From Ruminococcus sp. (GTDB lineage: Bacteria > Bacillota > Clostridia > Oscillospirales > Ruminococcaceae), in contig JAFZRF010000059.1 of the NCBI GenBank assembly GCA_017620025.1, positions 1 through 34,419 of the forward strand: DNA of 34,419 nucleotides, in the 5' to 3' direction. Under the pieces are notes generated by a model. The model ran no database searches. It had not been told where the DNA came from and saw only the letters and a list, made by a program, of their open reading frames with translations. Shown here in pieces: positions 9,305-17,333 of the stretch. Each line of letters starts with the position of its first letter. Within the stretch, counting starts at the first letter, position 1. Position numbers and translations under genes: made by a program.

Positions 9305-9550
9305 ATGACCAAGACTACAGTTTCACTTCAGGCGATCAACGATGTCAAGGATTTCGTAAACATTGTTATGAGATACGAATTCGATATAGACCTCGTTTCA
9401 GGCAGATACGCAGTAGATGCAAAGTCCATCATGGGTATCTTCAGTCTTGACCTCTCCAAGCCCATCGAGCTGAACGCTCACACTGATGAAGCAGAGGACT
9501 CCCTTAAAGAGGCCTTCCTCAAGGAGATCAGCAAATACATCGTTAAGTGA
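9305..9550 (+). CDS. HPr-like (Crh-like) protein lacking the phosphocarrier histidine
   Basis: 81-residue HPr-fold protein. The regulatory-serine segment is well preserved: GRYAVDAKSIMGIFSLDL (33-50), with Ser41 at the position of HPr Ser46. The active-site loop normally reading GLHARPA is replaced by LQAINDV. When the following Phe-Val is aligned, Ala10 stands where His15 should be and the Arg and Pro are lost. It therefore cannot pass phosphate in the PTS as HPr does. Bacillus Crh has the same logic (no His15, Ser46 kept) and acts only as a CcpA corepressor after HPr-kinase phosphorylation. A comparable regulatory role is inferred here. AGGAGG lies 8 bases before the ATG. Own promoter and terminator, so a single-gene unit. 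Confidence 0.85.
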   Translation: MTKTTVSLQAINDVKDFVNIVMRYEFDIDLVSGRYAVDAKSIMGIFSLDLSKPIELNAHTDEAEDSLKEAFLKEISKYIVK

Positions 9551-9561
9551 AGGTAAAGAAC

Positions 9562-9591
9562 GCCGCTGTTCGCATGAACGGCGGCTTTTTT
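9562..9591 (+). terminator. Terminator of the HPr-like gene
   Basis: 10-bp stem (9562-9571 with 9576-9585), GCAT loop, then six T. Starts 11 bases past the stop codon. Confidence 0.92.
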
Positions 9592-9645
9592 ATTTGCTGT
9601 ATATTTCCCTGTCCCCCGGAGATACTACCTGTGGGAGATGATAAG

Positions 9646-9828
9646 ATGAAAAAGAAGAAAACGCCGTCATCCGGACGTGATGAAGCGGTTTACCTCTGCC
9701 CCTCCGCATCCTGGGGCGACATGACGGGGCTCATACCTGCCGAACCGGACCAGGCCGATGCCGCGGAAAACTATGAAGAGCTCTACCCCTACCGTGCCGG
9801 ACAGACAGAGACTGCGGACAGGGTATGA
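9646..9828 (+). CDS. Small hypothetical protein (60 residues)
   Basis: I do not recognise a characterised family. GGGAG lies 8 bases before the ATG, and the frame closes after 60 codons. The N-terminus is basic (MKKKKTPS), the middle is CPSASWGDMTGLIPAEP, and the remainder is acidic with NYEELYPYR. The central CxxSxxGDMTGLIP segment looks like a defined motif, not random read-through. No membrane segment or signal peptide is seen. It lies just after the HPr-like gene's terminator and has no obvious promoter of its own, so expression may rely on read-through. It ends 5 bases before a small palindromic hairpin. Confidence 0.6.
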   Translation: MKKKKTPSSGRDEAVYLCPSASWGDMTGLIPAEPDQADAAENYEELYPYRAGQTETADRV

Positions 9829-9833
9829 CCTGC

Positions 9834-9852
9834 GGGCGGAATGATTCCGCCC
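9834..9852. repeat. GC-rich palindrome, possible terminator or REP-like unit
   Basis: Arms 9834-9841 and 9845-9852 form an 8-bp stem with a TGA loop, flanked by TGC and CCTAC. It follows the 60-residue ORF directly and has no T-run. It may be a dispersed palindromic unit; no second copy was found in this window. Confidence 0.5.
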
Positions 9853-10034
9853 CTACATAGAATAATGCTGTACATGAGTATATTGCGGGCGCTGTCAGGG
9901 CGTCTGTTTTCATGTTAATGTCCTGTAAGCTGCATCTGTCTGCACCTGCCACAGAACAGCCCGTCCGTTTCCGTAATTATGTTCAATCCCGACACCCGAA
10001 ATTTGTAACATCCTACAAAGTTTTATAAAAGGAC

Positions 10035-14644: not shown

Positions 14645-15253
14645 ATGGATCAGGTCAAGACCGGCGAGCTGATAAGGCAGCTCAGGAAAGAAAAAAAACT
14701 CACGCAGAAGGAGCTTGCGGAGCGTATAAACGTGAGCGACAAGGCAGTATCAAAATGGGAGTGCGGAAACGGCTGCCCGGATGTTTCTCTGCTGCCGGCA
14801 CTTGCAGAGGCACTTGGTACGGATGTACAGATCCTGCTCTCGGGTGAGATCGAAAAAAACGAAAGCGAGAAGGGCGATATGAAAAAGATAAAGTACTATG
14901 TATGCAGGGAATGCGGAAATATCATCACTGCTGCATCTGAGGCCACTGTCACCTGCTGCGGCAATAAACTTACTTCTCTTGAGCCGAGAAGGGCTGCAGA
15001 GGAAGAGATGCTGAAAACAGAGGATATCGGCGGAGAATGGTATGTATCCTCGGATCACGAAATGACAAAGGAGCATTATATATCCTTCGTTGCCTATGTC
15101 AGCGACAGCATCTTCATGATGTTCAGGCAGTACCCCGAATGGAACCTCCAGTTCACCATGCCGATGTTCCGCACAGGCAGGCTCGTATGGTACTGCAACA
15201 GATGCGGGCTTCTGTATCAGGATATAAATCCCCGCCGCAGGAACGGACAATGA
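14645..15253 (+). CDS. XRE-family regulator with a Cys-rich C-terminal domain
   Basis: 202 residues. An N-terminal Cro/C1-type helix-turn-helix (about 6-62) has IRQLRKEKKLTQKELAERIN, VSDKAVSKWECGNGCPD and LPALAEALGTDVQILLSGE. From about 80 a second domain carries Cys pairs suggesting metal sites: YVCRECGNII, TCCGNKL and, near the end, WYCNRCGLLY. The first two resemble a rubredoxin/desulfoferrodoxin-like zinc ribbon. A DNA-binding protein that senses metal or redox state is a reasonable guess, not shown. GGAGGG lies 6 bases before the ATG. It has its own promoter and a shared bidirectional terminator, and it lies next to the exporter and the peptide genes, which are possible targets. Confidence 0.85.
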   Translation: MDQVKTGELIRQLRKEKKLTQKELAERINVSDKAVSKWECGNGCPDVSLLPALAEALGTDVQILLSGEIEKNESEKGDMKKIKYYVCRECGNIITAASEATVTCCGNKLTSLEPRRAAEEEMLKTEDIGGEWYVSSDHEMTKEHYISFVAYVSDSIFMMFRQYPEWNLQFTMPMFRTGRLVWYCNRCGLLYQDINPRRRNGQ

Positions 15254-15257
15254 AAAA

Positions 15258-15294
15258 GAAAGCAGTCCGTGCTTTTAATCAACGGACTGCTTTT
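15258..15294. terminator. Bidirectional terminator, XRE gene / peptide gene A
   Basis: 10-bp stem (15261-15270 with 15282-15291). The plus strand is followed by TTTTCTTTTA, and the minus strand by TTTCTTTTTC. It lies 4 bases past the XRE stop and 4 bases from the stop of peptide A, serving both convergent genes. Confidence 0.88.
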
Positions 15295-15297
15295 CTT

Positions 15298-15381
15298 TTA
15301 TTCTTCTGCATCAGATGCATCGATAACATCCTCAACCTCGAATGCGATAACCTGGAGCTCAGGTGTCTCATACTTCTGCAT
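15298..15381 (-). CDS. Micro-peptide A, paralogue of peptide B
   Basis: 27 residues beginning MQKYETPELQ and ending EDVIDASDAEE. AAAGGAGAA lies 9 bases before the ATG. It has its own consensus promoter, a two-hairpin leader and a terminator. The first 23 residues are identical to peptide B at 15741-15830. The four base differences in that block are all synonymous, which is strong evidence that it is translated and under selection. The tail is DAEE instead of VESTER. Acidic, no Cys, no signal peptide or membrane helix. A conserved front and variable tail recall RiPP precursors, but no modifying enzyme lies nearby and the tail is very short. Function unknown. Confidence 0.85.
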   Translation of the reverse strand: MQKYETPELQVIAFEVEDVIDASDAEE

Positions 15382-15494
15382 GGTAATTCATTCTCCTTTC
15401 ATAGATTTTATACGACAGCTGAATGCAGCAGCTGAACATACAGTATAATCGATGTAAACAGTCTTTCCAGACTGATAATTCTTTTTGATTTTGC
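15382..15494 (-). promoter_or_regulatory. Two-hairpin leader of peptide gene A
   Basis: Predicted 5' leader of about 113 bases. Hairpin 1 at 15459-15474 has a 6-bp stem closed by GGAA. Hairpin 2 at 15416-15434 is CAGCTG paired with CAGCTG. The end carries CTATGAAAGGAGAA. The same arrangement occurs before peptide gene B. Confidence 0.6.
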
Positions 15495-15500
15495 GATTTT

Positions 15501-15529
15501 ATTATATCACATTATACGCTCTCAGTCAA
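15501..15529 (-). promoter_or_regulatory. Promoter of peptide gene A
   Basis: Minus-strand TTGACT (15524-15529), 17 bases, TATAAT (15501-15506). The last ten spacer bases are TATAATGTGA, and AAAATCGCAAAA follows the -10; both are repeated at promoter B. Confidence 0.92.
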
Positions 15530-15703
15530 CCTTATGTTTTTACTATTTTGAATACATATTTATAATATTTTTCGCGTACAATTTATTATTTTGTGCTGTA
15601 CATTTCAGAAAAATGCTGCATCATTATCTATAAATTAAAAAGCATTACCGCCAAAAGGAAGCAATGCATCAATTTACGAAAAAGCCGGAAATGCTCATTC
15701 TAT

Positions 15704-15737
15704 AAAAACAGCCCGTTTTGTAGAACGGGCTGTTTTT
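15704..15737 (-). terminator. Terminator of peptide gene B
   Basis: 14-bp stem (15704-15717 with 15724-15737) including A/T flanks, 6-base loop, with TTTTT on the minus-strand exit side. Starts 4 bases from the stop of peptide B. Confidence 0.9.
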
Positions 15738-15740
15738 TCT

Positions 15741-15830
15741 TTAGCGCTCGGTAGACTCAACAGATGCATCAATTACATCCTCAACCTCGAAAGCGATTAC
15801 CTGGAGCTCAGGTGTCTCATACTTCTGCAT
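15741..15830 (-). CDS. Micro-peptide B, paralogue of peptide A
   Basis: 29 residues sharing residues 1-23 exactly with peptide A (MQKYETPELQ to EDVIDAS), then VESTER. AAAGGAGAAAG lies upstream at the usual distance. It is an independent transcription unit with promoter, leader and terminator, so the two genes are a duplicated cassette and not an operon. The shared block is amphipathic and acidic with the pattern PELQVIAFEVEDVI. Short Firmicute proteins of this general type (Tyr-x-x-Pro-x-Leu then Glu-Asp-hydrophobic-Ile) are familiar to me, but I know of no assigned function. The lack of Cys argues against lanthipeptide or sactipeptide cores. Confidence 0.85.
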   Translation of the reverse strand: MQKYETPELQVIAFEVEDVIDASVESTER

Positions 15831-15942
15831 GGTGATTCTTTCTCCTTTCATAGATTATATAAATCAGCCGACTGGAGGGCTGATCATATCATACAAGAGA
15901 GTGTGACAGCTCAGACTGTCTGAAAAGCTGTTTTTGTTTTGC
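15831..15942 (-). promoter_or_regulatory. Two-hairpin leader of peptide gene B
   Basis: About 112 bases. Hairpin 1 at 15906-15931 pairs ACAGCT with AGCTGT and encloses a CAGA/TCTG stem. Hairpin 2 at 15863-15884 pairs ATCAGCC with GGCTGAT. The terminal CTATGAAAGGAGAA is identical to leader A. The hairpin order and positions match leader A although much of the sequence differs. Confidence 0.6.
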
Positions 15943-15948
15943 GATTTT

Positions 15949-15977
15949 ATTATATCACATTATATTCTTAAAGTCAA
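15949..15977 (-). promoter_or_regulatory. Promoter of peptide gene B
   Basis: Minus-strand TTGACT (15972-15977), 17 bases, TATAAT (15949-15954), with the same TATAATGTGA spacer end and AAAATCGCAAAA downstream as promoter A. Confidence 0.92.
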
Positions 15978-16063: not shown

Positions 16064-16102
16064 ACAGAAAAACGCATTACACCCATCAGAGTGTAATGCG
16101 TT
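16064..16102 (-). terminator. Terminator of the GGDEF gene
   Basis: 12-bp stem (16071-16082 with 16091-16102), 8-base loop, followed on the minus strand by TTTCTG after the stem's own TT. Lies about 60 bases past the stop codon. Confidence 0.85.
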
Positions 16103-16163: not shown

Positions 16164-17333
16164 TCACTGATTTCCGGCGATCCGTGCCATCATTGCTCTT
16201 TCCTCTGCTTCCCTGCGCTCGTGTTTGGCCTTCTTCTCCTCATACATATCCTGATCCATACGGTGGAGGAAAGCCTCGGTCGTTTCGTCGTTGCCGTTGT
16301 ATACTCCTATACCGGTAGAGAAGGAAAGCTCATACTTGTGTCCGCCGGTGCGGTTGAAAATACCGGCGCCGCGGTATATTTTTTCTATGGTCTGCTCGGC
16401 CTGCTGCTTGCCGCCGCCGCGTATCAGCACTATGAACTCATCGCCGGCATAGCGCACGGTGATGGAGTGCTCGGGAGCTGCAGAGCGTATTATAGAAGCT
16501 GCCTCTATAAGAGCTACGTCTCCGGTGTTGTGGCCGTAGGTATCATTGATCGACTTGAAGTAGTCAAGGTCTATCATGATGCCGGAAGAAGGGATATTCC
16601 TACGGTAAACATCACTCAGTATCATATTAAGGTAGTTGCGGTTATAAAGGCCTGTGAGCGCATCAATATACGAAAGCTCGTTCTGAAGGCTCATATATAT
16701 GCCCATAAGTCCGATAGCAACAGAGCACCACACTACGGATACTCCGTAGAACATACACTGCACTGCCGTACCGATGATGATCGGGACAAGGAAAATGAAC
16801 ATCGGGAAGAATTTGATCTTTCCGTATTCCGAATAGTACCTGCGCCTAAGTATCACGGATGCAGCAAGGTATATGAACGTGATGACATAGTAAGCGTATC
16901 CCGCTGTTTCACGGTGGTATACCATATTCTCGTCAATGCTGAAGATGAACTCATACTTCAGATTTGCTATCAGACCGATGAGGCCGATGACCACCAGCAC
17001 TATCCTCCAGGGTAAGCTGCGTTTGATCCTCTCTTCCTTGCGGTAAAGCCTCAGGTCAGTATATTCAAGCCACAGGAAGGATGTTGTGATATTAGTAAGA
17101 TAAAGCAGGCTGTTGAGTGCAAGATCTGTTGTTTTCGCTCCGGAAAACTGCTTCCCGTCGAGAATGAATGTCAGAGCCTCAGTCACACACGCTTCTGCGG
17201 TAAGAAGTATTATCGCAGTGAACAGCTTGTCTGCGGAGTTTTTTCTCTGCCGGACGAGTTTACTGCTCACAAGAAGCATGATCAGAATAGCACAGCCAAT
17301 ACCGTTTGTTACAATTATTGCTTGCAGATTCAT
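16164..17333 (-). CDS. Membrane GGDEF protein, probable diguanylate cyclase
   Basis: 389 residues. About six or seven hydrophobic helices fill residues 1-215, and a GGDEF domain follows from about 222: DALTGLYNRNYLNMIL, IDLDYFKSINDTYGHNTGD, the active-site loop RYAGDEF near 295-300, and FSTGIGVYNG. The domain would make c-di-GMP from two GTP at the membrane. The signature is AGDEF instead of GGDEF, a change that many active cyclases tolerate. The inhibitory-site RxxD that usually precedes the loop reads RSAA, so product inhibition is probably absent. The metal-binding Asp and the nucleotide-binding Lys/Asn/Asp of the KSINDTYGH segment are present. GGAGGAG lies 5 bases before the ATG. Single-gene unit; the signal sensed is unknown. 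Confidence 0.9.
   Translation of the reverse strand: MNLQAIIVTNGIGCAILIMLLVSSKLVRQRKNSADKLFTAIILLTAEACVTEALTFILDGKQFSGAKTTDLALNSLLYLTNITTSFLWLEYTDLRLYRKEERIKRSLPWRIVLVVIGLIGLIANLKYEFIFSIDENMVYHRETAGYAYYVITFIYLAASVILRRRYYSEYGKIKFFPMFIFLVPIIIGTAVQCMFYGVSVVWCSVAIGLMGIYMSLQNELSYIDALTGLYNRNYLNMILSDVYRRNIPSSGIMIDLDYFKSINDTYGHNTGDVALIEAASIIRSAAPEHSITVRYAGDEFIVLIRGGGKQQAEQTIEKIYRGAGIFNRTGGHKYELSFSTGIGVYNGNDETTEAFLHRMDQDMYEEKKAKHERREAEERAMMARIAGNQ

Follow-up and report, generated by a model that had tools for sequence, protein, structure and literature searches.

Two very short minus-strand genes are arranged head to tail in a 34,419-nucleotide stretch of Ruminococcus sp. DNA (the window), between an XRE-type regulator (14645-15253, plus strand) and a GGDEF protein (16164-17333, minus strand). 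A sequence-only reading of this locus had described genes of 27 and 29 codons with identical fronts and unrelated tails, possibly leader-core precursors, with no modification enzyme at their side. The locus raises the question of what a duplicated micro-peptide with a fixed front and a different tail is made for, and which proteins would process it.

The window pair and its conserved leader

Micro-gene 1 (15298..15381, minus strand) encodes a 27-residue peptide, MQKYETPELQVIAFEVEDVIDASDAEE, and micro-gene 2 (15741..15830, minus strand) a 29-residue peptide, MQKYETPELQVIAFEVEDVIDASVESTER. Alignment of the two copies confirmed that residues 1-23, located at 15313..15381 in micro-gene 1 and 15762..15830 in micro-gene 2 (both minus strand), are identical. 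The same alignment delimited the tails, DAEE with its stop codon (15298..15312, minus strand) and VESTER with its stop codon (15741..15761, minus strand). The 69-nt leader blocks agree at 65 positions, and the four differences, in codons 11, 13, 19, and 20, are all third-position and all silent, as had been claimed. Random changes are expected to be silent in approximately 21% of cases (42 of the 198 possible changes), so that four silent changes out of four give p ~0.002. The 23-residue leader of the window pair is under purifying constraint; the proposed selection on the front was thus borne out, both by these silent-only changes and by retention of the leader across the family described below. 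An alternative in-frame ATG located upstream would make copy 2 36 codons long, but in copy 1 a stop follows that ATG, and MQKY is therefore likely the start of both window peptides.

The expression signals of the two genes were also retained. A ribosome-binding site, AAAGGAG, was read from the sequence in each copy (15393..15399 and 15842..15848, minus strand) and is conserved between them. A sigma-70-type core promoter, TTGACT-17-TATAAT, with the same hexamers, the same spacing, and a TG before the second hexamer, is common to both (15501..15529 for micro-gene 1 and 15949..15977 for micro-gene 2, minus strand; 11/12 consensus matches each). The stop codons are followed by strong terminator hairpins and then T's, evaluated as −21.5 kcal/mol (z −6.6) for micro-gene 1 (15254..15299, minus strand) and −20.8 kcal/mol (z −6.3) for micro-gene 2 (15704..15737, minus strand). 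The 5' leader between promoter and ribosome-binding site diverged between the copies, as did the tails, which indicates that the duplication is old enough to reveal the parts that were retained, i.e., the promoter core, the ribosome site, and the leader.

The window peptides gave no match to Pfam and NCBIfam models. Rfam candidates in the region all fell below the gathering score and were rejected, as was a regulatory-RNA reading of the region, for which the terminators are the sole support. The XRE and GGDEF neighbours have no demonstrated link to the peptide pair. The former adjoins a MATE exporter, and its C-terminal part resembles a zinc ribbon or desulfoferrodoxin (weak matches, below cut-offs). 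A hairpin of 12 pairs with a T-rich tail is located at 16071-16102, in the gap that separates the GGDEF gene from the peptide pair. In another genome (locus L097 of G020), a protein homologous to the GGDEF protein of the window was recognized by eye approximately 3 kb from a kinase-PqqD pair, and a shared neighbourhood is possible.

The peptide family and its putative maturation machinery

When the 27-residue peptide was used as a query against the same assembly, 11 matches were obtained, comprising the window pair, eight others (E 3.3e-5 to 0.67), and L011, which had an E of only 1.7, lies within a radical-SAM gene in antisense orientation, and was dropped as spurious. That gene, 687 residues long, is followed by a second one in locus L055 (8316-11055, G000:C70), and both show radical-SAM-like CxxxCxxC motifs by eye. 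With a 20-row family model, this genome gave 11 matches at E<=1e-5, including the window peptides (E 6.2e-13 for micro-gene 1 and 1.9e-12 for micro-gene 2). The homologous frames in related genomes on which the sequence-only reading depended were present: the same model found matches in 70 of the 125 genomes of the genus that includes R. flavefaciens, up to 14 per genome, so the family is widespread. An eight-row model gave matches in 23 of 40 genus genomes and, in the wider family, in 15 of 197 genomes and 10 of 125 genera. One match, in G032, is doubtful for a stop inside the open frame and the lack of a kinase, and is kept in these counts. The further matches in the same assembly exclude chance for the window pair, whose peptides are members of a large, apparently undescribed family. 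Among the matches listed by a search of the open-access literature (bioRxiv excluded) there was no recognizable description of the family, which is not proof of absence; those listed for the leader strings were all unrelated, which again is not proof of absence from print.

The family leader has the motif YxxPE[LM]EIIxFxxEDVIxxS, with the consensus Y-x-x-P-E-x-E-I-I-x-F-E-x-E-D-V-I-T-T-S, and is followed by a variable tail. Y4, F14, E17, D18, I20, and S23 are invariant or near-invariant in the family alignment. A fixed leader with differing tails is the conserved-leader/variable-core arrangement of an RRE-dependent RiPP precursor. In a family member from outside the genus (L123), two peptides of the same leader style lie approximately 450 nt apart and bear Cys in their tails (SNCQNCDGWTYE and SCTPDTCTCDHQDNNEPDW).

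The idea of a leader-core precursor gained support from the genes that adjoin the peptides in relatives. One common operon consists of a secreted protein with a shared C-terminal domain (CTD), the peptide, a lipoprotein or radical-SAM maturase, an HPr-kinase-like protein, a PqqD-type protein, an S24/S26-type protease, an ABC exporter, and a nucleotidyltransferase; in an alternative order, PqqD and nucleotidyltransferase stand ahead of the kinase. In this genome, genes for a PqqD protein (PF05402, 4.8e-14) and a nucleotidyltransferase of the NTP_transf_5 type (PF14907, 1.4e-41) come directly after that of a paralogous peptide (L042), and a second PqqD-nucleotidyltransferase pair is located on contig C57; the two PqqD proteins here are those of C51 and C57. 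A precursor beside an RRE was hence found in relatives and in the paralogue L042. No modification enzyme, RRE protein, or radical-SAM maturase was seen in the neighbourhood of the window pair, so the earlier statement about modification enzymes holds beside the pair, but not genome-wide, since these two enzyme pairs are encoded elsewhere. PqqD was detected in 17 of the 40 sampled genus genomes, all 17 of them peptide-bearing.

The kinase retains the H, GxGKS, and DD motif residues, and 7/8 of the BsfK motif residues were recognized by eye using the motif list in an excerpt of PMC10368454; both kinase and protease gave weak Pfam and NCBIfam scores, below cut-offs. Across the 125 genomes, peptide and kinase were both present in 58 and both lacking in 54, while 12 (including this genome) had the peptide only and one the kinase only (Fisher p 2.5e-22, kinship of the genomes ignored). 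A weak kinase fragment (E 8.2e-14) in G009, a genome without the peptide, was not counted as a kinase. Among the 80 named loci of 556 confirmed ones gathered through the kinase, a leader peptide was counted from the locus map within 7 kb of the kinase in 36; the 44 others showed none and include some at contig ends and some with 9 kb on both sides. Profile searches of this genome, whose assembly is 76% complete, gave no match for the kinase or the S26 protease, and the last maturation steps here thus remain putative.

In some relatives, a radical-SAM/SPASM protein is placed next to the precursor, and several of these precursors have Cys in the tail, which most clearly points to a leader of the RiPP type. 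Such proteins were located directly behind YxEAELEI-type precursors with Cys-containing tails in L086 (8366-9745), L087 (8139-9503), and L092 (310-1689). The L086 maturase, the only one scanned, scored far below the curated NCBIfam cut-offs for all 25 families shown.

Tails, surface-protein domains, and lipoproteins

A total of 224 profile matches was reduced to 132 distinct peptide-plus-upstream records by skipping rows without a recognizable leader end or upstream stop and merging duplicates; a few peptides are still present twice, in different loci, and the search profile was trained on 26 of the peptides. Loci L284-L307 lie outside this set and entered only the 24-locus CTD set and the 20-pair lipoprotein test. 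A gene for a CTD protein precedes the peptide in 69 records and another long frame in 37, no such frame precedes it in 17, and 9 records are truncated. The gap from CTD gene to peptide has a median of 16 nt and is 60 nt or less in 67 of the 69. The CTD is one shared C-terminal domain (alignment A8), and its proteins were taken to be secreted because signal sequences were recognized by eye at their N-termini in the gene maps. Scans of some of them gave DUF285/BspA-type repeats, a dockerin protein, and one protein of transglutaminase-like type. The CTD profile gave no match to solved structures, the domain region of L270 scanned alone gave none in Pfam, and a weak FlgD Ig-like match, below cut-off, was obtained within the CTD of L285. 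The domain was found in 19 of the 40 sampled genomes, all among the 23 peptide-bearing ones, the match in G019 being weak and partial.

Similarity of the tails was correlated with that of the CTDs, giving a Mantel r of 0.53 that was reached in 0/5000 permutations, for 65 pairs in which close relatives are included. The leader-CTD value for the same 65 pairs was lower (r 0.31). With diverged CTDs (normalized score <0.3), r was 0.27 for the tail (0/5000) and 0.18 for the leader (p 0.004). Part of the tail-CTD correlation simply reflects that adjacent genes are inherited together. Other upstream domain classes, as judged by eye, are each accompanied by a tail style of their own. Hence, DAEE and VESTER do look unlike each other, as first described, but family-wide the tails are conserved by subtype; the implication that they are free to vary was not supported, as they track the type of partner protein and some recur at the ends of neighbouring lipoproteins.

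Such recurrence was observed for some small lipoproteins near the peptides, which pair, for example, INIDENEWA with LNLDENEWA in L165, DDGLNWSPLTPI with DDGLEWSPLTPIN in L226, and PPEGEEVEI with PPEGEEIDPFQ in L136. For 20 lipoprotein-peptide pairs, a mean score of 20.7 was evaluated against 14.1 (sd 1.2) after shuffling, and 0/20000 permutations reached the observed mean; the true partner ranked first or second in 8 of the 20 pairs and did not in the other 12. These 20 pairs remained after similar lipoproteins were collapsed from 27, and at least two frames (L019 and L020) look spurious. The strict filter had given 12 pairs and a loosened one 18 (0/20000), before the 27 that were collapsed to 20; the loosening came after the example matches were known, so the test was not blind. 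The leader motif itself was found in the same frame as a lipoprotein in L041/L046, which are one gene, and in L134. These lipoproteins (9511-9891, minus strand, in L041/L046) are Thr-rich, and the motif precedes the tail (YTTPEVEIVEF..EDVITTS in L046); L046 may also have an internal GTG start, preceded or accompanied by a stretch that resembles a ribosome site.

The nearest homologue of the window pair in the 125 genomes is MQKYESPELEIISFDVEDVITTSEEITTPER of G313, which ends in EEITTPER and is located behind a CTD protein. A window-type peptide (E<=1e-6) was found in 2 of the 125 genomes, this one (G000) and G313. This genome encodes two CTDs without an adjacent peptide, at the protein ends G000:C43:38909-39700 and C51:21913-22722, and the peptide-adjacent CTD of G313 shares 54-55% identity with them over 229-230 residues. 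Against nine peptide-accompanied CTDs, its alignment extended over 110 residues at most, and several of these nine could be aligned to the C43 and C51 CTDs at 23-28% identity. The close CTD subtype (E<=1e-74) occurs only in G000 and G313, the same two genomes as the window-type peptide, with a cut-off that was chosen after the wide gap to the next best match (5.5e-46) was known and with the kinship of G313 and G000 ignored. The next nearest CTDs in a wider set are 36-40% identical, and several of their accompanying peptides end in TTPEVG-like tails. A subtype-2 CTD fragment, an apparently broken copy in a 76-codon frame, was also noted in this genome (L272/L300, G000:C57:154579-154797).

In the loci examined, G313 had eight full-length subtype CTD matches and one split copy together with one window-type peptide, adjacent to a CTD. 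This suggests that one peptide may act at a distance for more than one surface protein, as would suit the free-standing window pair. CTD proteins without a nearby peptide are numerous (L270, L271, L273, and L276; 16 of the 24 loci of the wider CTD set, some overlapping), and multiple CTDs per peptide can also be read against strict pairing.

Candidate function and relation to known systems

Taking gene neighbourhoods and profile matches together, we consider the window pair to be, on balance, probable RiPP-like leader-tail precursors that act in trans for surface proteins. The PqqD-type protein (RRE) would bind the leader MQKYETPELQVIAFEVEDVIDAS (YxxPxL, EDVIxxS) in trans, and the kinase followed by the nucleotidyltransferase would act on Ser/Thr residues of the tail or of its junction with the leader. 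By analogy with pseudomycoidin, as given in an excerpt of PMC8498205, we infer that this putative step near the junction is phosphorylation or phosphoglycosylation. The protease and exporter would then release the tail outside the cell, where it may serve as a subtype-specific key for the CTD of large secreted surface proteins; binding between tail and domain is suggested by covariation alone. Small lipoproteins would display the same key at their ends. The window pair would be free-standing copies that serve the C43:38909-39700 and C51:21913-22722 proteins of the matching subtype. Several observations speak against this explanation: the window tails have only 4 and 6 residues and DAEE contains no Ser/Thr, kinase and S26 protease gave no match in this genome, no enzyme adjoins the pair, 44 of the 80 kinase loci showed no peptide within 7 kb, and CTD proteins without a nearby peptide are numerous.

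More tentatively, a RiPP-type machine of leader, RRE, kinase, nucleotidyltransferase, protease, and exporter may make exported peptide keys for the CTD locks of the cell's own large surface proteins, and not antibiotics. With the same keys on membrane lipoproteins, peptide and lipoprotein could jointly determine the holding, assembly, or release of particular surface proteins; the genomic patterns allow this extension, though we would not rely on it. Fibre degradation is a habit of these gut bacteria, and a tail-domain match, if true, would link peptide post-translational chemistry to surface-protein display in them and provide a testable lock-and-key prediction.

Three other explanations were weighed. 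The peptides could be RiPP precursors of an ordinary antimicrobial or signalling kind whose maturation takes place in trans; the cell would secrete the tail as a bioactive core, for which the surface protein or lipoprotein would be an immunity or receptor partner and not the target. The RRE, the exporter, the protease, and the radical-SAM variants with Cys-bearing tails would all suit such precursors; RiPP clusters commonly encode lipoproteins that confer immunity, and in prochlorosins, too, a single machinery is shared by many dispersed precursors. For an antimicrobial, however, 4-7 residues would make a very short tail, tail type follows the domain of the surface protein with possibly many domain proteins per peptide, and some lipoproteins bear the same tail, not a recognizable tail-binding domain, all of which makes this explanation unlikely. 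Unmodified peptides, i.e., small PqqD-binding adaptors or translationally coupled regulators of surface-protein synthesis or export with the tail as a cytosolic contact, would agree with the 16-nt median gap to the CTD gene, suggestive of translational coupling, and with a 76%-complete genome in which PqqD and nucleotidyltransferase were found and kinase and protease were not. This is harder still to credit, as the fuller operon has a kinase, a protease, an exporter, and in some cases a radical-SAM maturase, the tail recurs on some of the lipoproteins, whose place of action is outside the cell, and the window pair has its own promoters without a coupled gene. It is most improbable that a duplicated precursor lost its surface-protein gene and that the window pair are its decaying remains, since the leader changes are silent only, both promoters and both terminators are intact, and the matching CTD subtype occurs twice elsewhere in the genome, even though no surface protein adjoins the pair, kinase and protease were not found in the assembly, and the window tails are shorter than most of the family tails listed, with IDAS in place of ITTS.

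The preferred reading of trans-acting leader-tail precursors invites comparison with lasso precursors that have a kinase and nucleotidyltransferase (paeninodin, pseudomycoidin, and BsfA). Both groups have a YxxPxL leader, a separate PqqD-type protein (B1 in the lasso group), an HPr-kinase homologue, a nucleotidyltransferase, and an ABC exporter. YxxPxL is named as the lasso leader motif in an excerpt of PMC10368454, and Y4, P7, and L9 are present in both window peptides. In the excerpts of the same two papers, kinase and nucleotidyltransferase give a phosphoglycosylated peptide for pseudomycoidin (PMC8498205), and phosphorylation of BsfA is boosted by the RRE (PMC10368454). Unlike this group, operons of the relatives contain an S24/S26-type protease in place of the B2 leader peptidase, and the precursors are many and scattered, over half of the records being located directly behind a CTD protein. 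The B2 peptidase (PF13471) gave no match in this 76%-complete genome, and in the genus sample 3 of 40 genomes had one at E<=0.001, of which one exceeded the cut-off and two were weak. No lasso cyclase of the Asn synthase type was recognized by eye beside the peptides, and the window tails DAEE and VESTER lack a ring-length core that starts with G or A and has Asp or Glu at 7-9. Lasso identity was not assigned, as B2 is without a match here and the window tails are unable to form the ring.

Radical-SAM RiPPs (ranthipeptides and sactipeptides) resemble those relatives that have a radical-SAM/SPASM maturase, several with Cys tails; a Cys core with a maturase in the cluster was found in some relatives and not in the window pair. 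The SynChlorMet cassette is alike in that ScmC is the best NCBIfam match of the kinase-like protein of L045 (E 6.2e-5), though at 22.5 bits far below the 125-bit cut-off. The window peptides appear to function in the manner of RRE-guided RiPP precursors, with tailoring partners of the lasso type.
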